A stretch of 64,000 nt of DNA from a virus, in IMG/VR virus record IMGVR_UViG_3300021375_000018, positions 23,119-87,118 of that record; one strand, given 5' to 3'. Below are positions 23,106 to 63,366 of the stretch, in pieces; position 1 is the stretch's first letter, and every line of letters starts with the position of its first letter. Below the pieces are notes generated by a model, which was not told the origin of the DNA, made no database searches, and saw only the letters and a list, made by a program, of their open reading frames with translations. A program made the position numbers and the translations under genes.

Positions 23106-24080
23106 TTGCCTATTAATAATAAATTAGATCCTGTAAAATTACCAATGAAACTTAAATTCAATCAAGAAGTAAAAACAAAATTTATAAACAATCTTGATTC
23201 TTTAAATATAGAGTTAATTGAAGGTCCAACTAGACATCAAGCAATGAATATTGCATGGAATATGACTAAAGCAACTTGGGCTGATGATCCTTCATTAACA
23301 CAATTAAGTCCATTCCAACTTAAAGAAGCATCTCAAAATCTACAAGATGTATTAAACTTTAGAGCACTTCCTACTCCTATGGAATGTCTAGGCTTTACAT
23401 TTAAAATCAGCGGAATTGATACTCAAACTGTTACTCATTTAATTAGACATAGAGCAGGATCATTTGCTGCACAGTGCACAGGTGATAGAGATCTTAGATT
23501 TGACAATATTTTAGTTCCTGAATCTGTAGAAAATTCAACTTTTTATAATAGATTTCAAAAAATTGCTAACGATGCAAAAAAACTATACGCAGACATGACA
23601 GATAGTAAGTGTATCTCAATGATGGACGCTCGAGTAATTCTTCCTAAATGCACAGAAACATTTTACATTGCTAGATTCAATCTTAAAGATTTGATTGGGT
23701 TTATCAAACAACGTCAAGATGTTCAAATTCAACCTGAGGTTGATAACATAATTGCAACAAGAATTGCGAGATTAGTTGTTGATAGAATTCCTGAAGTTTC
23801 TACATGTTTAGACTTTGAAAAACCTGATATGCACTATGTTCGAACATTTAGAGTTGAAATGCCTAATGGCGAGTATACTTCAAGAGGCACTAACTTGTAC
23901 CAACCAGAACCTAAAAATGATTTATTTGAATATAACGTGAATGATTCTATTTATCAATGTAGAAGAGAAGAGCTCAACGGAGATGTTCCTACAGATAACT
24001 CTAAAAACTTTACAATTATGTGGAACAAAGACGTACAATATATTAGTAATATTAAGAAACAATTTGAGGTGACCCTATGA
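23106..24080 (+). CDS. Divergent ThyX-superfamily protein
   Basis: The start is a TTG preceded by AAGGAG; no ATG fits. The 324-residue protein has a ThyX-like core: FTFKISGIDTQTVTHLIRH followed by RHRAGSFAAQCTGDRDLRF, where canonical ThyX has RHRxxSxNExSxRYT. RHR and Ser are kept, but the Asn-Glu and Ser-x-Arg-Tyr part is replaced. A later ARVILPKCTETFYIARFNLK and IKQRQDVQIQ match the helices that follow in ThyX. Substrate contacts must therefore differ. It may act on another pyrimidine nucleotide or transfer a different one-carbon group. The next gene starts inside its last codons. Confidence 0.7.
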   Translation: MPINNKLDPVKLPMKLKFNQEVKTKFINNLDSLNIELIEGPTRHQAMNIAWNMTKATWADDPSLTQLSPFQLKEASQNLQDVLNFRALPTPMECLGFTFKISGIDTQTVTHLIRHRAGSFAAQCTGDRDLRFDNILVPESVENSTFYNRFQKIANDAKKLYADMTDSKCISMMDARVILPKCTETFYIARFNLKDLIGFIKQRQDVQIQPEVDNIIATRIARLVVDRIPEVSTCLDFEKPDMHYVRTFRVEMPNGEYTSRGTNLYQPEPKNDLFEYNVNDSIYQCRREELNGDVPTDNSKNFTIMWNKDVQYISNIKKQFEVTL

Positions 24081-31056: not shown

Positions 31057-31087
31057 GTGTAAATTAAATATTAATTAATTATAATAA
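31057..31087 (+). promoter_or_regulatory. Promoter copy 1 of the displaced dnaE 5' unit
   Basis: GTGTAAAT-N15-TATAATAA matches the family exactly. With the next 24 bases, including AAGAAAGG, it forms a unit repeated almost identically at 32215 and 36328. Confidence 0.65.
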
Positions 31088-31110
31088 ATAAAACAAGAAA
31101 GGTATATAAT

Positions 31111-31176
31111 TTGTCTATTGAGTTAATAACACCACCAAATAGATTCGTATCTCTTCACTCACACTCAACATTTAAA
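31111..31176 (+). pseudogene. Truncated copy 1 of the dnaE N-terminus
   Basis: From a TTG behind AAGAAAGG the frame reads MSIELITPPNRF and VSLHSHSTF, the start of the DnaE PHP domain (the HxHS metal motif), and then runs into unrelated sequence that is the antisense end of the next gene. The frame remains open to 31305, but only about 21 codons are dnaE-like. It seems to be an abandoned 5' end of dnaE. Confidence 0.6.
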
Positions 31177-36327: not shown

Positions 36328-36358
36328 GTGTAAATTAAATATTAATTAATTATAATAA
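36328..36358 (+). promoter_or_regulatory. Promoter copy 3 of the displaced dnaE 5' unit
   Basis: GTGTAAAT-N15-TATAATAA, followed by AAAAAAGG and the third dnaE-like start. The 60 bases from here are nearly identical to copy 1. Confidence 0.62.
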
Positions 36359-36382
36359 ATAAAAACAAAAAAGGTATATAAT

Positions 36383-36496
36383 TTGTCTATTGAATTAATA
36401 ACACCACCAAATAGATTTGTATCTCTTCACTCACACTCAACTTTTTTAAAACTTAGTATGTTATTTTGGGAAGGCAAATTAAATACGTGTAAATAA
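36383..36496 (+). pseudogene. Truncated copy 3 of the dnaE N-terminus
   Basis: From a TTG the frame reads MSIELITPPNRF and VSLHSHSTF, then 16 unrelated codons, and stops at 36496 inside the promoter of the present dnaE. It breaks at the same codon (HSHSTF) as copy 1. Confidence 0.6.
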
Positions 36497-36550: not shown

Positions 36551-38326
36551 ATGAATAATACATTTAATACGGAAAGGAGGTATCTAGAGAAGGTTGAACT
36601 TGAACTGCTTACACCTAACAGATTTGTTAGCTTGCATTCGCATTCAACCTTCTCGTAGATATCTACGTTTGATGGATTAGGTTATCCAGCAGATCACATC
36701 AACTTTGTTCTTTCTGAATCTCAAGGTATGGATGCTTGGGCTTTAACAGATCATGGAAACGGCAACGGTCTTGCTCATGCTCATTCACATGCTGTTAAAA
36801 TGCAAAAGAAAGGTCAAAAGTTTAGACAAATCTACGGTGTTGAATTCTATTTTGTACCTTCTCTAGAACAATGGTCAAAAGAATACTCAGATCATCGTCA
36901 AGCAGTCAAAGATGCAAAAACAGCAGCAGCTGCTGAAAAGAAATCAAAAGAAAAAGTTGATATCGATGCTGATGATGAAAGTGGTGGTTTAGTTATTGAA
37001 GACGAAGAAGAAACAAAGAAAATCGATATCCTTAAAGATGAATGGAAACGACGTTATCACCTTGTAGTCACTGCACGCAATAGAAAAGGCTTAAACAATC
37101 TTTTTACTCTTGTTAAGAAATCATATAAATATGGATTCTATCGATATCCTCGAATTGACTTTAAAATGTTAAAAGAACACGGTGAAGGTCTTCATGTATC
37201 AACAGCATGTTTAGGCGGACTTTTTAGCAATAGAATTCTAAGAGGTAATGCTCACAATAAATCACGTGATGAAATACAAAAAGATCTTCTAAACTTAACA
37301 GATAGATTTACAGACGCAGTTGGTTTAGAAAACTTTAAACTAGAACTACAATTTAACAAACTTAATAAGCAACACATTGTCAATGATTATTTGATAGAAC
37401 ATCATAAGCTAACAGGTATTCCATTGATATCTACAGCAGACTCACACTATCCAACAAATGATAAATGGCAAGCAAGAGAACTATACAAGAAACTTGGATG
37501 GTTAGGAAAAAAAGATGGAATGACTTTACCTACATTTGAAGATCTTAAATGTGAGTTATATCCAAAAAATGCACAACAAATGTGGGATGAGTTTTTAGAA
37601 TCATATCCTCTATATGATTTCTATAAAGGTAACGAAGAACTAGTCAAAGAATCAATTGAAAGAACACATGATATTGTATGGGAAAACTTTGAAGATACAT
37701 GGATCGATGTAGGTGCAAAACTACCTACGATATCAATTCCTAATAAAACGCCATTTCAGCACTTATGTGATTTAGTTAAAAGTGCTTTAATCAAAGAAGA
37801 ACTTCATAGTAATAAAGAATACGTTGAACGCGCAAAGTATGAATTATCTGATATTAAATACTTAGGCCATGCAGCTTATTTTATTACAATGTATGAGATC
37901 TTTAAAAAAGCTGAAACAAAGACTTTATTTGGAGCAGGACGTGGATCAGGTGCAGGTAGCTTAGTTAATTATCTTTTAGGTATTACTCAAATTGATCCGA
38001 TACCTTACAACTTACTTTGGAGCAGATTCTTAGGTAGACATAGATGTTTGGATGAAGACATATACATAATGTCTGAAAGTGGTAAAAAGAAACTTAAAGA
38101 TGTTGTTGAAGGCGAAAAAGTATTAACACATACAGGACAATATCAAAGAATTCTTGACAAAGCTGTGACACAACATGACATGGCAATTGAAATAAAGTTT
38201 AATGGTCGCAATATTATTTGTTCTCCTAATCATAGATGGATTATTAATCGCGATGGCGCCGAAGTAGAAACGATGGCATGTCACTTAAAAAAAGGTGACA
38301 AACTTATAAAAAATATACATACTTGA
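36551..38326 (+). CDS. dnaE: DnaE (DNA polymerase III alpha) part 1 plus N-half of split intein 1; in-frame TAG near start
   Basis: The ATG at 36551 has AAGGA upstream and reads 35 codons, ending RFVSLHSHSTFS, the first PHP metal motif. A TAG at 36656-36658 then interrupts; after ATA TCT the frame continues in register as TFDGLGYPADHINF. The PHP domain goes on (ALTDHGNGNGLAHAHSHA, YGVEFYFVP, STADSHYPTND) and the polymerase begins (FGAGRGSGAGSLVNYLLG). After GRHR, 38045-38326 encode an N-intein: CLDEDIYIMSESGKKKLKDV (block A) and IICSPNHRWII (block B), ending at a normal stop. Without bypass or readthrough only a version lacking the first PHP motif could be made, for example from ATG 36728, which has a poor ribosome site. 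Confidence 0.82.
36581..36661 (+). promoter_or_regulatory. Long stem-loop and stop-containing palindrome in dnaE 5' end
   Basis: TATCTAGAGAAGGTTGAA at 36581-36598 is complementary to 36643-36661 with one bulged G, giving an 18-bp stem and a 44-base loop that encodes LLTPNRFVSLHSH. The 3' arm overlaps a perfect 14-base palindrome, CGTAGATATCTACG (36654-36667), which holds the in-frame TAG. A perfect AAGGAGGT anti-ribosomal site lies just before the stem (36574-36581). Structure in exactly this place suggests translational control or recoding, or it may be the scar of a rearrangement. Confidence 0.6.
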
Positions 38327-39400
38327 TATAGTTAATCCAAGAAAACATTTCCGGAGAAAGTTTTATGGAAGAAAAAGAATATCGAAAAAATATTAGCTGC
38401 AAAAACTGTAAGATAGAATTTATTGTAAGATTTAAAATGTCAGATCAAGGTTCTATTGCAAAGTGCAATAAACTATATTGTAGTAAATTATGCAAAAAAG
38501 AATATCTTAAAAAAAATGGTACAAGTAATTCTATAGAACTTGTGTGTAGATATTGCAAATGCACTTACTATAAGCCTGAATCACTTTCAAAAAACTCAAA
38601 ATTCTGTAGTAGAGTTTGCCAAAATAGAAGTTATGCCAGTAGAAACAAGAAAGAAAAAAAGAACATTAATTGTAAAAACTGCAATAAAACTTTTATTGTT
38701 ATAGAAAACTCTAAAAGAAAGTACTGCAGTCATGAATGTAGTCATGCTGGACAAAAAGGCAAGACAAAAATATTTACATGTGCAGTCTGCAAGGAAGAAA
38801 AGCACATACTTGAAAATGACAATAGGATGTATTGTGGTAGAAATTGCCAGTATAAGGCACAGTCTTTAGGTTTAATTAAGATTCCAACAAAAGGAAGATC
38901 AGGTTATAGAACTGATTTGCCTGATGATATGCGTTTTAAAAGTTCACTTGAAGCAGACTATGCAAGATTTTTAAAATATAAAAAAATAGACTTTAAATAT
39001 GAAAGTAAGTGCTTTGAGCTTATTGACAAAGGTAAAATAAGAAGATATACACCAGACTTTTACATAGAAAAAGAAGGCTTATATGTTGAATTAAAAGCAG
39101 GTAGAAAAGACAAGAAATACTCTAAAAATTTAGAGTGCGTGCAATTAGTAAAAAATATTGGTTACAATATAAAAGTAATATACATGTCGGAATTTTATGA
39201 CATGCTTAAGAAAGAAAAATTATATGAGGAGATTCCAAACATTGAAAGACGCAACTACAAAAAGTCAAGACACCTTATACGAAATTGAAGAAATTAATTT
39301 TGTTCACTATACTCGAGATATGATTGATATTGAAGTAGAAGGTGATCACACTTTCTATATTTCAGAAAATCCTGACGCTGATTTTGTTTTGACACATAAT
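38045..39400 (+). mobile_element. Split intein 1 of dnaE with endonuclease gene in the gap
   Basis: The element consists of the N-intein (38045-38326, 94 codons, Cys1), a free endonuclease gene (38365-39288) and the C-intein (39242-39400, about 53 codons, ending VLTHN). The flanking exteins join as GRHR then TSWPDIDTD, placing the intein just before the catalytic Asp motif of the polymerase. This matches the 'fractured gene' arrangement of split inteins with an endonuclease gene in the break. Residues needed for trans-splicing (Cys1, block B His, terminal His-Asn, +1 Thr) are all present. Confidence 0.85.
38365..39288 (+). CDS. Homing endonuclease, four zinc fingers plus PD-(D/E)XK domain
   Basis: The 307-residue protein has its own GGAGAAAG ribosome site and four Cys4 fingers (CKNCKIEF...YCSKLC, CRYCKCTY...FCSRVC, CKNCNKTF...YCSHEC, CAVCKEEK...YCGRNC) in residues 11-165. 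The nuclease part has SSLEADYARFLKYK, YTPDFYIEKEGLY and VELKAGRKDKK, giving E...PD...ExK. It is paralogous to the 27016 protein. It lies between the halves of intein 1 and would cut intein-free dnaE, driving homing. Its 3' end overlaps the start of the C-intein ORF by 47 bases. Confidence 0.85.
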   Translation: MEEKEYRKNISCKNCKIEFIVRFKMSDQGSIAKCNKLYCSKLCKKEYLKKNGTSNSIELVCRYCKCTYYKPESLSKNSKFCSRVCQNRSYASRNKKEKKNINCKNCNKTFIVIENSKRKYCSHECSHAGQKGKTKIFTCAVCKEEKHILENDNRMYCGRNCQYKAQSLGLIKIPTKGRSGYRTDLPDDMRFKSSLEADYARFLKYKKIDFKYESKCFELIDKGKIRRYTPDFYIEKEGLYVELKAGRKDKKYSKNLECVQLVKNIGYNIKVIYMSEFYDMLKKEKLYEEIPNIERRNYKKSRHLIRN

Positions 39401-40894
39401 ACAAGCTGGCCAGACATTGATACTGATGCAGGTGATAGAGATGAACTAATAAATGCTGCAAGAGAATTATATGGTAACGATGCTGTTATCCCAGTTTCAA
39501 ACTTCAACACTCTTAAGCTTAAGTCTCTTGTCAAAGATATTGCAAAGTTTTATGATATTCCTTTTGACGAAGTCAATAAAGTCACAGGACCTTTACAAGA
39601 ACAAGTCATGCAACTTGCTATGGATAAAAATCAAGAAAAGTCTGTATTTGTTTTAAAACATGAAGATTGTATGAAATATTCAGTTGAATATAATGAGTTT
39701 ATGACAAAGTATCCAGAAGTTGCTGAACATGTTGAAACTCTGTTTATGCAAAACAGAGCTATTGGTAGACATGCTGGAGGTGTTATAATAGCAGATGCTG
39801 ATAAGCTTGAACAATCAATGCCAATTGTTGGTGTTCGAGGTGAATTACAAACACCCTGGACTGAAGGTATGAACTTTAGAAATCTTGAAGATAATGGCTT
39901 TCTTAAGTTTGATTTCTTAGGATTAACACTGCTTAAAGATGTAGAAAATTGTATTTATCGTATTCTTAAAAAGAAGGGTAATGAAAATCCAACATTTTTA
40001 GATGCAAGATCTTTCTTTGACAAACATTTAAATTGTAGATACGTTAAACAAGATGATCTTAAAGTTTGGGAACACGTTTATAAAAATGGTAGATTTTGTG
40101 GAATATTTCAATTTACTGCTCCTGGCGCTAGAAATTTTGCAATAGAAGCTGAACCTGATTCTATTGAGGAATTGGCTGCGCTAACTGCGATTTATCGTCC
40201 GGGACCACTTAAAGCAAATGTCCATAAGAAATATGTTAAGGCTAAAAGAAATGTTGCAGACATCAAGTATGATCACCCTATCATTGAAAAGATACTAGGC
40301 CCAACATACAACTATGTAGTATTTCAGGAACAATTTATGTTATTGGCTCAAGAGCTAAGTGGCTTTAATCCTGGTGAAGCTGATAAACTTAGAAAAACAT
40401 TAGTTAAAAAATCATTAGATACACTTCATTCTAAAGGATCAGAGAAAGCAATTGCTAGAGAAAAGTTTATAAAGGGTGCTAAAGAGTTGAACGACGTTCC
40501 CGAGCACATATCGTCTAAGTTATGGGCAGACATAGAAAACTTCGCGGTTTACGGCTTTAATAAAAGTTTACTGTTTAATACTTTAGTAGATACTTATGAT
40601 TATAATGGAAATTATTTAGAAACAAAGGAGATTAAAGATGTTATTCCTGGGGTTTATGTTAAGTCAAGAGACGAAGAAACAAAAGAAGATATCTTTACAC
40701 AAGTATTGGCAAATCATGATCATGGAGAAGTGCCAACTTTTAAGATTACATTGGAGGATGGACAAAGTGTTGAATGTACAATGCATCATAAGTTTAGAGT
40801 TGAAGATGGAAGGATGTTGCCGCTATGGTACATAATACAAGAAGATCTTTCGATTGTGTGTGTGGAAAAAGTTTTGCAAACAACTCCAGTTTAA
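39242..40894 (+). CDS. dnaE: DnaE part 2, with C-half of intein 1 and N-half of split intein 2
   Basis: I chose the TTG at 39242, with GAGGAG ten bases upstream. Codons 1-53 are the C-intein (block F IDIEVEGDHTFYISEN, block G VLTHN). The extein then runs TSWPDIDTDAGDRDEL, the polymerase active site, through NRAIGRHAGGVIIADAD, TAIYRPGPLKANVHKKYV, VVFQEQFMLLAQELSGF to ENFAVYGFNK. From 40565 an N-intein begins with Ser: SLLFNTLVDTYDYNG (block A-like), FKITLEDGQSVECTMHHKF (block B) and a C-terminal tail to the stop at 40894. The polypeptide therefore needs splicing at both ends. Confidence 0.87.
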   Translation: MKDATTKSQDTLYEIEEINFVHYTRDMIDIEVEGDHTFYISENPDADFVLTHNTSWPDIDTDAGDRDELINAARELYGNDAVIPVSNFNTLKLKSLVKDIAKFYDIPFDEVNKVTGPLQEQVMQLAMDKNQEKSVFVLKHEDCMKYSVEYNEFMTKYPEVAEHVETLFMQNRAIGRHAGGVIIADADKLEQSMPIVGVRGELQTPWTEGMNFRNLEDNGFLKFDFLGLTLLKDVENCIYRILKKKGNENPTFLDARSFFDKHLNCRYVKQDDLKVWEHVYKNGRFCGIFQFTAPGARNFAIEAEPDSIEELAALTAIYRPGPLKANVHKKYVKAKRNVADIKYDHPIIEKILGPTYNYVVFQEQFMLLAQELSGFNPGEADKLRKTLVKKSLDTLHSKGSEKAIAREKFIKGAKELNDVPEHISSKLWADIENFAVYGFNKSLLFNTLVDTYDYNGNYLETKEIKDVIPGVYVKSRDEETKEDIFTQVLANHDHGEVPTFKITLEDGQSVECTMHHKFRVEDGRMLPLWYIIQEDLSIVCVEKVLQTTPV

Positions 40895-41802
40895 ATAGTC
40901 ATCAAAAAAAATGTAATGTATTTTTAGAAAAGTCAACTGAGGGTATTGATTATATAGAGTGTAGAGTTTGTGGATATATTGGTAAAAATATTACATCTCA
41001 TGTTAAAAAGCATCATTCTTTATCTAAAGCTGAGTATGAAGAAAAATATGGGTCTACTATATGTGAGAAAACAAGAGGTATATATGCTGTAAATGGTGAT
41101 TGGATAACAAGAGCAAAAGAACGAGGTGATGATTTATCTGAATATTATGAGAAGTTAAGTGATAAAATATCAGAGGGTATTATGAAGTCTGACGCTGCTC
41201 GAGAAGCTAGAAGAAAGAATCTTTCTAGTTTGAACAAGACAAAAGAGTTTAGAGATAGATCATCAAAAACAGCTAAGAAAACATCAGAAAGAAAAGATAT
41301 ACAAAAAGAAAGATCAGAAAGGCTTGCTAGATGGAGGTTAAGTAATCCAGAAGAGTTTTATGAAAAATGTACATCTGTTATGCACAAGTCTTGGCAGTCA
41401 AAACCAGAAATTGATTTATTTAAAAAAGTAGACAGTATATTCCCTAATATGTTCAAAAGAAATCAAATTCTTAAAAGAACAGGTAAGTTTTTAACTACAA
41501 AAACAAATATTAGACAAATTGATATTATGTCGTTAGAAGATAAAATTATAATTGAGTTTGATGGTATACATCATTTTAAAGATGTTTTCAAGAAAAAAGG
41601 AAACTTGCAAGAAGTTAATAAAAAAGACAAAGAGTTAAATGAAGTTCTTGTTGAAGAGGGTTGGACTGTAATTAGAGTTTCTTATGATGAGTATGACTAT
41701 AAAGACAATGGTACGTTTAATCAAGAAACATTAGATAAAGTAAGAAAAATAATAACAAATAAAACACGTGGTTTGTGGTTGTTTGGTAAGTCATACGTGT
41801 AA
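40825..41802 (+). CDS. EDxHD (Vsr-like) homing endonuclease
   Basis: The 325-residue protein begins with C2H2-like fingers (CVCGKSFANNSSLNSHQKKC, then CRVCGYIGKNITSHVKKHHS). A SLSKAEYEEKYGS module and a basic helical spacer follow (about 110-190), then a nuclease domain: KPEIDLFKKVDSIFP, RQIDIMSLEDKIIIEFDG and IHHFKDV, followed by DKELNEVLVEEGWTVIRVSY. The E, D, H and D positions fit the Vsr-like EDxHD homing nucleases found in split-intein gaps. It overlaps the N-intein ORF by 70 bases. Confidence 0.82.
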   Translation: MVHNTRRSFDCVCGKSFANNSSLNSHQKKCNVFLEKSTEGIDYIECRVCGYIGKNITSHVKKHHSLSKAEYEEKYGSTICEKTRGIYAVNGDWITRAKERGDDLSEYYEKLSDKISEGIMKSDAAREARRKNLSSLNKTKEFRDRSSKTAKKTSERKDIQKERSERLARWRLSNPEEFYEKCTSVMHKSWQSKPEIDLFKKVDSIFPNMFKRNQILKRTGKFLTTKTNIRQIDIMSLEDKIIIEFDGIHHFKDVFKKKGNLQEVNKKDKELNEVLVEEGWTVIRVSYDEYDYKDNGTFNQETLDKVRKIITNKTRGLWLFGKSYV

Positions 41803-41827
41803 ATTAATATTAAATATTATATTATAA
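41797..41827 (+). promoter_or_regulatory. Phage promoter, GTGTAAAT-N15-TATTATAA
   Basis: Its upstream box overlaps the stop codon of the endonuclease gene. It gives the third dnaE fragment its own transcription start. Confidence 0.6.
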
Positions 41828-41848
41828 AACAAAAAAGAAAGGTTGATA

Positions 41849-42925
41849 ATGCCTCGTATTAAATCAATTGAATTTACTAATAAGCAGCAGACATTTGACT
41901 TGGAGGTTGCGCATCATGATCATCAATATTATTTAAGTAATGGGATTCTTCAATCAAACTCCCATGCTGTTGCTTATGCAATTGGTTCGTATTATGCTGC
42001 TTGGCTACACACACATTATGAGCCTGAATGGCTTGCTGCTATTTTACAGTCTGAAAATGGTAACCCTAAGGATATGTCAAAAGCAATATCAGAGATTAAA
42101 TCTTTTGGATACGAAATTGCTGCTATAGACATTAATCATTCAGGTACAGAATGGGAATATTCAGAAGAGTTAAAAGCATTTGTTCCACCTTTGACATCAC
42201 TTAAAGGTGTAGGAGATAAAGCTGTTGAAGAAGTATTTAGAAATCGCCCTTATAAAGATTTAAATAATTTGTTTTATGATGAAGAAGGTAAATGGAAACA
42301 TTCAAAATTAAATAAAACAGCATTCGTTTCACTTGCAAAAATGGAATCATTTAAATCATTGGAAGAATTTAAAAGTGGAAAACTGAAACATCACAAGCAG
42401 CTTCATGATATGCTGATTGAAAATTATAATGACCTTAAAAAGGGTGAGTGGGGAATAACAAAGACAGCATATAAAAGAATGATTAAAAAAGGTGAGGTGC
42501 CTATTAAAATAGTAGATAGGTTATCAGATGAGTATGAGTTATTAGATGATTGGACAAGATCTGAGAAGATTAAAAATTATTTTGAGTTATCTAATGATGC
42601 ATCTGATGATTTGTTATTTCCTCCTGAGTTATTGCAGAGGTTAAAAGATAAGTCTGTTAATTCTGTATTTGAGATAGAGAGTGGTAAAAAAGGAATTGGG
42701 TGGTTTACAGTAGTAGAAGTTATAAGAAAGACAACGAAGACTGGCAAGCCTTTTATGAGATGGAAATGTGTTGATTCTGATAATCGTAGTGGATGGTTAA
42801 GAGTGTGGGGAAATATAGATGATGATATAGAGTATGCGACTTGGATGTCTGAAGTTAAGAATGATGGTGGATGGGGAATGTCAACTAATTCAAGTAAAGT
42901 TAGAAAAATCAGTGCTTTTGATTAA
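41849..42925 (+). CDS. dnaE: DnaE part 3, with C-half of split intein 2
   Basis: The ATG at 41849 has AAAGG upstream; a TTG two codons earlier is less likely. Codons 1-37 are the C-intein (MPRIKSIEF, TFDLEVAHHDHQYYLSNG, ILQSN). The extein starts SHAVAYAIGSYYAAWLHTHY, continues with the helix-hairpin-helix region (LTSLKGVGDKAVEEVF), and ends with an OB-fold-like segment (GWFTVVEVIRKTTKTGKPFM). Together the three exteins make about 1200 residues, a normal DnaE length, so nothing large is missing. Confidence 0.87.
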   Translation: MPRIKSIEFTNKQQTFDLEVAHHDHQYYLSNGILQSNSHAVAYAIGSYYAAWLHTHYEPEWLAAILQSENGNPKDMSKAISEIKSFGYEIAAIDINHSGTEWEYSEELKAFVPPLTSLKGVGDKAVEEVFRNRPYKDLNNLFYDEEGKWKHSKLNKTAFVSLAKMESFKSLEEFKSGKLKHHKQLHDMLIENYNDLKKGEWGITKTAYKRMIKKGEVPIKIVDRLSDEYELLDDWTRSEKIKNYFELSNDASDDLLFPPELLQRLKDKSVNSVFEIESGKKGIGWFTVVEVIRKTTKTGKPFMRWKCVDSDNRSGWLRVWGNIDDDIEYATWMSEVKNDGGWGMSTNSSKVRKISAFD

Positions 42926-62707: not shown

Positions 62708-63366
62708 TGAGTGACTTTAATATTCTTAATTTGTTTGACAAGTTTATTAATGAACAAAACAACACTGAAGAAGAGCAAATCATACAAAATAGCGTTGAAA
62801 ACAATATTGAAGATGACCCTAGAAATCTTAAAGCTCCATCTAAAAAGCGTAATAAAAAAACAATAAATCAAGATGCGAATAAAAAAACTGAAGAAGAAGA
62901 ATTAGTTGCAAATAATAAAGAATATAGTGATGATGAAGTATATGATGACTCGCCGCCTATTGCAATAAATATTGTTGACTCATTTACTTTTAAAAAATTA
63001 ATTGATGCTCTAAACATGTTTAGAGCATCACACTCTCTTACAGATACTGAAATAATGGTTGAATTAGAAAATTATTATGATAGGCTAGACAAGAGAGAAA
63101 AGTCTATATTATATGTATTCATAAAAGGTCTAACACAGGTTACTTCGTTTGATGCAAAAGGTAAGTCAGCAAACATACCTACAGACTTTGGATTAAAAGT
63201 AGAAAAAAAAGGCTCAACATCAAGTGAAAAAATAAAGTCAAAGAAAAGAAAAATCAAAGCTAGTATAGAATCTGATGATGTTGACAATATGAGTCCTATA
63301 ATAGTAGGTGAAGGAAACCAGCAAAAAAAAGAATTTATATATAAAGTTTTACAAGAGAATAGATGA
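62707..63366 (+). CDS. Virion-cluster protein with KFINE leader (219 aa)
   Basis: The leader FNILNLFDKFINE|QNN ends like the EFKELLxEW family leaders (NFINE). An acidic/basic low-complexity linker follows (about 17-85), then a compact domain (SFTFKKLIDALNMFRASHSL, LENYYDRLDKREKSILYVFI) and a basic C-terminal tail. The small domain may bind another virion protein. Function is unknown. Confidence 0.55.
   Translation: MSDFNILNLFDKFINEQNNTEEEQIIQNSVENNIEDDPRNLKAPSKKRNKKTINQDANKKTEEEELVANNKEYSDDEVYDDSPPIAINIVDSFTFKKLIDALNMFRASHSLTDTEIMVELENYYDRLDKREKSILYVFIKGLTQVTSFDAKGKSANIPTDFGLKVEKKGSTSSEKIKSKKRKIKASIESDDVDNMSPIIVGEGNQQKKEFIYKVLQENR

Follow-up and report, generated by a model that had tools for sequence, protein, structure and literature searches.

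The locus studied here raises a simple question: how does a phage express its dnaE gene, which encodes DNA polymerase III alpha, when a stop codon stands within the first motif of the PHP domain? The gene lies in a stretch of 64,000 nt (positions 23,119 to 87,118; hereafter the window) that is part of IMGVR_UViG_3300021375_000018, an 87-kb IMG/VR virus record with 29% GC. From the ATG at 36551 the frame reads MNNTFNTERRYLEKVELELLTPNRFVSLHSHSTFS, meets the stop TAG at 36656-36658, passes through ATA and TCT, and then reads TFDGLGYPADH...; beyond the stop the reading frame stays open, with matches to PHP and DNA_pol3_alpha, and the gap splits PHP motif I (HxH...D). The record has a single PHP match, with exactly one internal TAG. 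An in-frame TAG between HSHSTFS and TFDGLGYP had been noted in the original prediction, and both letters and translation confirm it; the further claim that dropping the nine nucleotides TAGATATCT gives a normal PHP domain agrees with the alignment to solved DnaE polymerases, which show a three-residue deletion exactly at the gap. We consider it very likely that the ribosome skips TAGATATCT by programmed translational bypassing, with take-off at TCG 36653 and landing at TCT 36662, and that the site is part of a mobile cassette, a reading drawn from sequence comparison. The parts of the site are as follows.

36551 to 36655, plus strand: recoded replacement 5' exon of 35 codons, the last being the take-off codon; conserved in L006, L066, L013, L014, L017, L019, L021, L071, L084 and L089.
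36653 to 36655, plus strand: take-off codon TCG (Ser), from the junction comparison.
36656 to 36664, plus strand: 9-nt coding gap TAGATATCT, with stop TAG at 36656-36658 and landing TCT at 36662-36664.
36665 to 38326, plus strand: dnaE from the resume codon ACG (PHP, polymerase) into the N-terminal part of an intein.

A scan of viral loci with the downstream dnaE part gave 80 related loci, and further loci came from scans with the cassette's endonuclease and with other dnaE genes. A stop at the same spot of dnaE was found in 68 loci, a count in which some contigs appear more than once through overlapping extracts; sorted by take-off codon and gap, the loci represent 18 distinct forms. As these forms are not all independent and related sequences inflate the statistics, the p-values given below are optimistic and serve as guides only. 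The anatomy of the junction is always ...HxHxGFS, then TAG, TAA or TGA, a short gap, and dnaE resuming in the correct frame. Gap lengths of 5, 7, 8, 9, 10 and 11 nt cover all three frames, and resumption is always at the homologous residue, as the following examples illustrate (each gap includes the landing codon).

Window: take-off TCG, gap TAGATATCT, resume ACG.
L013: take-off TCC, gap TAGGTATCT, resume ACA.
L094: take-off TCG, gap TAACG (5 nt), resume ACC.
L102: take-off TCG, gap TAGCTACG (8 nt), resume GTA.
L107: take-off TCC, gap TAATGGAACC, resume ATT.
L039: take-off TCG, gap TAATAATATCA (11 nt), resume GTA.
L263: take-off TCT, gap TGAAAATCT, resume ACC.
L303: take-off AGT, gap TAAGT, resume GTA.

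Because the same place is hit in many diverged phages, the stop is far beyond chance; the TAG is real and no sequencing error. The use of all three stops and all three frames excludes suppression and simple frameshifting as a common cause. Nine loci (L006, L066, L013, L014, L017-L019, L021 and L071) have the same MNNTFN...HSTFS-stop as the window, while in relatives of 92-95% identity (L002, L003, L007 and L022) dnaE is uninterrupted, with a TTG start and LSIELITPPNRFVSLHSHST-FSTFDGLGYP.

Substitution patterns show that purifying selection acts on the codons before the gap as well as on those after it. The ratio of nonsynonymous to synonymous differences (pN/pS) in the stop-bearing loci is 0.07-0.22 over the 20 codons after the gap, and 0.12-0.47 over the last 18 codons before it (0.22 in the window's clade), where pS is lowered in the hairpin-forming exon, which must also fold. 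Beyond the gap, L006, L014 and L017 each have an intact open reading frame (ORF) of ~1168 codons (1168 residues).

A first regularity is the relationship between take-off and landing codons. The landing codon was defined by protein alignment only, as the codon before X in S-X-[F/M/Y]-D-G. It agrees with the take-off codon at two or more of the three positions in 18/18 forms, compared with no more than 5/18 at offsets of -4 to +6 (naive binomial p 3e-15). Where the landing codon encodes Ser, a single isoacceptor could read both take-off and landing; non-Ser landing codons retain take-off positions 2 and 3 (TCG to ACG or GCG, TCC to ACC or GCC, TCT to ACT), with the exception of one form, TCG to TTG, in which position 2 differs and a U-G pair is possible. 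Whenever position 1 of the landing codon is different, position 3 is identical to that of the take-off codon. L303, which has AGT in place of TCN at take-off, also lands on AGT. The match, AGT to AGT included, is what one would expect of a bypass, since re-pairing of one peptidyl-tRNA predicts exactly such tracking; the proposal that a single Ser tRNA hops over exactly TAGATATCT from TCG to TCT, in the manner of T4 gene 60, is thus supported by the comparative evidence.

The second regularity is a hairpin. In every form the exon is predicted to form a single long hairpin with its base at the take-off codon; in the window a one-base bulge parts the main helix from a lower helix. The complementarity of 36578-36598 to the sequence around the TAG had been overlooked. 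The elements of this region are listed here, together with a palindrome discussed below.

36574 to 36581, plus strand: AAGGAGGT, Shine-Dalgarno-like, inside the exon beside the hairpin; GGAG is found here in 17/18 forms.
36578 to 36586, plus strand: 5' strand of the lower helix, AGGTATCTA, pairing with the gap TAGATATCT (RNAfold; compensatory changes in L013, L017 and L019; not in every form).
36587 to 36598, plus strand: 5' (guide) strand of the main helix, GAGAAGGTTGAA (individual folds, guide-swap test, pair types per position).
36643 to 36654, plus strand: 3' strand of the main helix, TTCAACCTTCTC, in the codons of HSTFS (folds, guide-swap test, pair types).
36654 to 36667, unstranded: palindrome CGTAGATATCTACG, absent from the other junction forms.

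Because MAFFT misaligned the guide strands of the hairpin region, we relied on swapping guides between families and on counting pairs fold by fold. The duplex of guide and exon has -20.9 kcal/mol with a form's own guide and -12.5 kcal/mol with guides swapped between families, and 0/20,000 permutations were as good. The minimum free energy is lower than that of synonymous recodings in 18/18 forms (z -2.2 to -7.3), as compared to a z of 0.08 +/- 0.87 (minimum -1.94) in 89 uninterrupted dnaE starts used as controls. In all of 23 sequences, exon positions -5 to -9 take part in pairs, which are of up to four types, and the helices show compensatory pairs across forms. The conserved structure is the whole-exon hairpin abutting the take-off codon, not the palindrome that the original prediction had taken as the signal. 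The palindrome CGTAGATATCTACG is indeed perfect, but it is not conserved outside the window's close kin; perfect palindromes of at least 14 nt are common in the window (13 in total), and we rejected this one as the hop signal, which it probably is not. The perfect AAGGAGGT described as lying upstream is present as well, though inside the ORF and not 5' of its start. GGAG at this inner position occurs in 17/18 forms and in 48/127 controls (an imperfect control), an enrichment that may reflect a mere start-site Shine-Dalgarno sequence.

From these features we propose the following course of events. The ribosome would translate the replacement exon, thereby opening the hairpin, and would stall at its end, with the P site holding Ser-tRNA paired to TCG (36653) and the A site facing TAG. 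The codon-anticodon pair would then open and the hairpin zip up behind the ribosome, drawing the mRNA back, so that the ribosome slides 9 nt forward; the lower ~12 bp, which would still be in the mRNA channel at take-off, should suffice for a slide of 5-11 nt. The tRNA would re-pair at TCT (36662), and decoding would restart at ACG (36665). The expected product, ...HSHSTFS-TFDGLGYP..., has a normal PHP domain, and the predicted spanning peptide is ...HSHSTFSTFDGLGYP....

Several points weigh against this proposal. The landing is exact in only 2/18 forms, and landings on ACG, GCG, ACC, GCC, ACT and TTG can be made only with a mismatch or a wobble; even the TCG to TCT hop of the window needs a Ser tRNA that reads both codons (UGA anticodon). 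The pair counts derive from folds of individual sequences. A nascent-peptide signal of the KKYK kind was not identified in the N-terminal peptides, which are short and owe part of their sequence to the hairpin. Lastly, all hop-bearing loci are uncultured virus contigs.

The rival explanation that survives best, which we nevertheless regard as improbable, is a split protein, in which a 35-residue peptide ends at the TAG, the remainder arises by termination-reinitiation or internal initiation, and the pieces assemble. A normal stop codon at the junction and the GGAG just 5' of the hairpin would suit such a scheme, as would the apparent split inteins (described below) that break the window's dnaE again. 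However, the 20 selected codons after the gap contain no canonical start common to the loci, the first ATG lying 1 to 43 codons on; landing codons such as TCT, ACG, GCG, ACC and AGT are not starts, yet they track the take-off Ser codon, and the tracking of AGT by AGT is not predicted by reinitiation with fMet-tRNA. PHP motif I would moreover be halved. The lack of a shared start, along with the conservation of the junction, also disfavours the downstream start and the decayed 5' end that had been named originally as alternatives.

Still less probable is removal of the gap at the RNA level, be it by cryptic splicing or by cleavage and ligation at the hairpin. The position of the junction at the foot of a conserved hairpin and the short matches that flank the gap are compatible with it, but the gaps measure just 5-11 nt and share no splice signals, and the match obeys a codon logic in which position 1 or position 3 is mismatched, never both. 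We also considered a group I or group II intron and rejected it: Rfam gave no match to either, nor to any other known RNA, whether in this region of the window or in the seven relatives searched.

A homing endonuclease gene is found directly upstream of the junction in many forms. Full cassettes run from the native 5' exon through the endonuclease gene and the replacement 5' exon to the stop and gap, after which the rest of dnaE follows. The window holds a reduced version, in which the interior of the endonuclease gene is deleted and the native exon, a remnant and the hop signal are retained.

36383 to 36445, plus strand: stranded native dnaE 5' exon with TTG start, LSIELITPPNRFVSLHSHSTF; equals the uninterrupted start of L002, L003, L007 and L022.
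36446 to 36478, plus strand: 33-nt remnant of the left end of the cassette and of the endonuclease gene (leader TTAAAACTTAGTATG, tail ...FWEGK), by comparison with the full cassettes L006, L014, L018 and L071.

The copy of the native start just upstream had escaped the original prediction; L006, L014, L017, L018 and L071 likewise keep a native 5' exon stranded ahead of their endonuclease gene. A second stranded native leader and 5' exon (LSIELITPPNRFVSLHSHSTF), near-identical to 36330-36445, is located 5 kb upstream in the window (31060-31175), and L084 also has two such copies; these duplicates are possibly traces of repeated break repair at the site.

The complete endonuclease has ~300 residues, with a C-terminal domain resembling T7 endonuclease I and N-terminal parts that are Cys-rich or NUMOD3-like. 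It matches the T7-endonuclease-I-like PD-(D/E)xK core of PDB 1m0d (E 2e-4), falls mostly just below the cut-off of Pfam PF05367 (above it in L107), and keeps the conserved E, PDF and ExK residues; the protein is thus predicted to be a typical homing endonuclease. In the window and in L066, L019, L021, L073, L118, L204 and L260 the endonuclease is lost or reduced, and hairpin, stop and landing codon are kept. In a tree of the downstream protein (144 rows), the hop label on the polymerase changes 23 times, at least 19 of these changes being forced by well-supported branches, and the row closest to the window (97% identity) is uninterrupted. These patterns indicate that the entire cassette is gained and lost among close relatives, and the patchy distribution fits an endonuclease that would cut the uninterrupted dnaE site and drive its own copying. 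A further effect of the gap and of the recoding may be to shield the site against the endonuclease that the cassette itself encodes.

The same endonuclease family also stands right before uninterrupted dnaE genes (L100, L101, L103-L106, L295, L298, L301, L310-L313, L318 and L324), and those tested lack the hairpin; such arrangements represent either a cassette type without the hop or an earlier stage without it. L307 (~1414) and L309 (~3836) also have this kind of endonuclease ahead of dnaE; there the polymerase frame continues only after a +1 shift at the junction motif (TTT C TCG CTT), which contains no stop, so that either +1 frameshifting or an indel is involved. Searches for the cassette in isolated phages gave only distant relatives, none bearing the hop, and in bacterial and archaeal genomes only distant relatives of the endonuclease, none of them seen upstream of dnaE.

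The remnant gene and the stranded exon might also be taken to mean that the 5' end has decayed, that the polymerase was knocked out by the endonuclease, or that sequencing or assembly went wrong; we give this no more credit than processing of the RNA, as the identical junction appears in many independent assemblies and diverged lineages, the hairpin and the reading frames are under selection, the long downstream ORF of L006, L014 and L017 is intact, and the record has only one PHP match. Least plausible of all is readthrough by a suppressor tRNA or a reassigned TAG with three added residues X-I-S, which the in-frame gap of the window (9 nt) would allow but which is contradicted by relatives with TAA or TGA and gaps not multiples of three, by the absence of a tRNA gene from the window, and by the window's own ORFs of at least 150 codons, which end in TAG 7, TAA 31 and TGA 8 times.

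To our knowledge, natural programmed bypassing in phages amounts to essentially one case, T4 gene 60, plus a few candidates, and among open-licence papers we did not find bypassing in phage dnaE described. In T4 gene 60, a stop follows the take-off codon, take-off and landing codons match, a 5' stem-loop serves as motor, and a homing endonuclease gene is adjacent (PMC5009743, PMC11194080, PMC3014915); the stem-loop has been proposed to close behind the ribosome and pull the mRNA backwards (PMC5009743, PMC11194080). The dnaE junctions resemble the mobA-gene 60 arrangement in that they interrupt a phage replication gene with an insert absent from relatives, have the stop directly after take-off, possess a 5' stem-loop able to refold behind the ribosome (its role as a motor being inferred here), and have a homing endonuclease gene next door; the landing also matches the take-off, although more loosely than the GGA/GGA of T4. 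They differ in having a gap of 5-11 nt instead of 50 nt, a Ser take-off (TCN or AGT) instead of Gly GGA with an often only near-matched landing, no conserved stem-loop enclosing the stop at take-off, a hairpin made of the entire recoded 5' exon, and a native exon that is duplicated and not split off; moreover, there are at least 18 forms in many phages, as opposed to the single T4 case.

The mitochondrial byp elements of Magnusiomyces yeasts are likewise short inserts skipped by the ribosome, in which imperfect matches are allowed and which are thought to be mobile (PMC5009743). However, they are context-independent and have an unused codon rather than a stop at take-off, whereas translation here is of the bacterial type, with a hairpin exon and a linked endonuclease gene. 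Synthetic 'stop-hops' in E. coli, in which matched codons around a stop let ~9 nt yield one amino acid (PMC5009743), come close as well, but the dnaE junctions are natural and conserved and have a dedicated hairpin. The cassette protein shares with homing endonucleases of the T7-endonuclease-I-like (PD-(D/E)xK) kind a weak but consistent C-terminal match and the Cys-rich or NUMOD3-like N-terminal parts; here, though, it sits outside any intron or intein and carries a replacement exon and a hop.

We think it likely that such a 'hop cassette' offers homing endonuclease genes a third mode of residence in an essential gene, beside introns and inteins, and that the hop outlives the endonuclease. 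The cassette carries its own start of the host gene, rewritten as a hairpin whose refolding would drive a short slide over the stop to a codon chosen by a simple pairing rule, and hop cassettes are widespread in uncultured phages. At least 18 natural junctions that vary in gap, frame, stop and take-off, with uninterrupted sister genes as controls, provide a rule of codon pairing at landing that can be tested, and they allow the part played by the hairpin to be told apart from that of the nascent peptide and of a long gap. They also suggest a means by which a selfish endonuclease gene can establish itself in an essential gene with neither intron nor intein. Annotation pipelines will miss or truncate such polymerases.

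A different insertion, of 42 nt (TAATTTCCGCCCGGAAAATAAATTCCGGGCGGAATAATATCA), was seen in L203/L207 (~2400-2500) after HAHS(TCG) of dnaE; it has a stop, a perfect hairpin and landing TCA, is also preceded by an exon hairpin, and has no endonuclease upstream. It has the appearance of a separate long hop of the T4 type, located three codons before the other site.

Further downstream, the window's dnaE (36665-42925) is apparently interrupted by two inteins, the halves of which are parted by endonuclease ORFs at 38365-39288 and 40825-41802.

38365 to 39288, plus strand: endonuclease ORF within the first of the two split-intein regions in dnaE, with a weak match to Phage_endo_I; the splitting inferred from ORF layout.
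39197 to 40894, plus strand: middle dnaE part, between the two interrupted inteins.
41843 to 42925, plus strand: C-terminal dnaE part, after the second interrupted intein.

Given two apparently split inteins, making the complete polymerase would take two rounds of protein trans-splicing in addition to the one hop; L006, L014 and L017 are without these two inteins. Split-intein 'fractured genes' with endonuclease genes, the protein being rejoined by trans-splicing, were reportedly described by Dassa et al. in 2009. The window's dnaE looks broken in this way at its two further places, unlike at 36656, where there is no intein. Elsewhere in the window, the longest perfect palindrome is TGATGCTCTAAACATGTTTAGAGCATCA, 28 nt in length, at 63003-63030.
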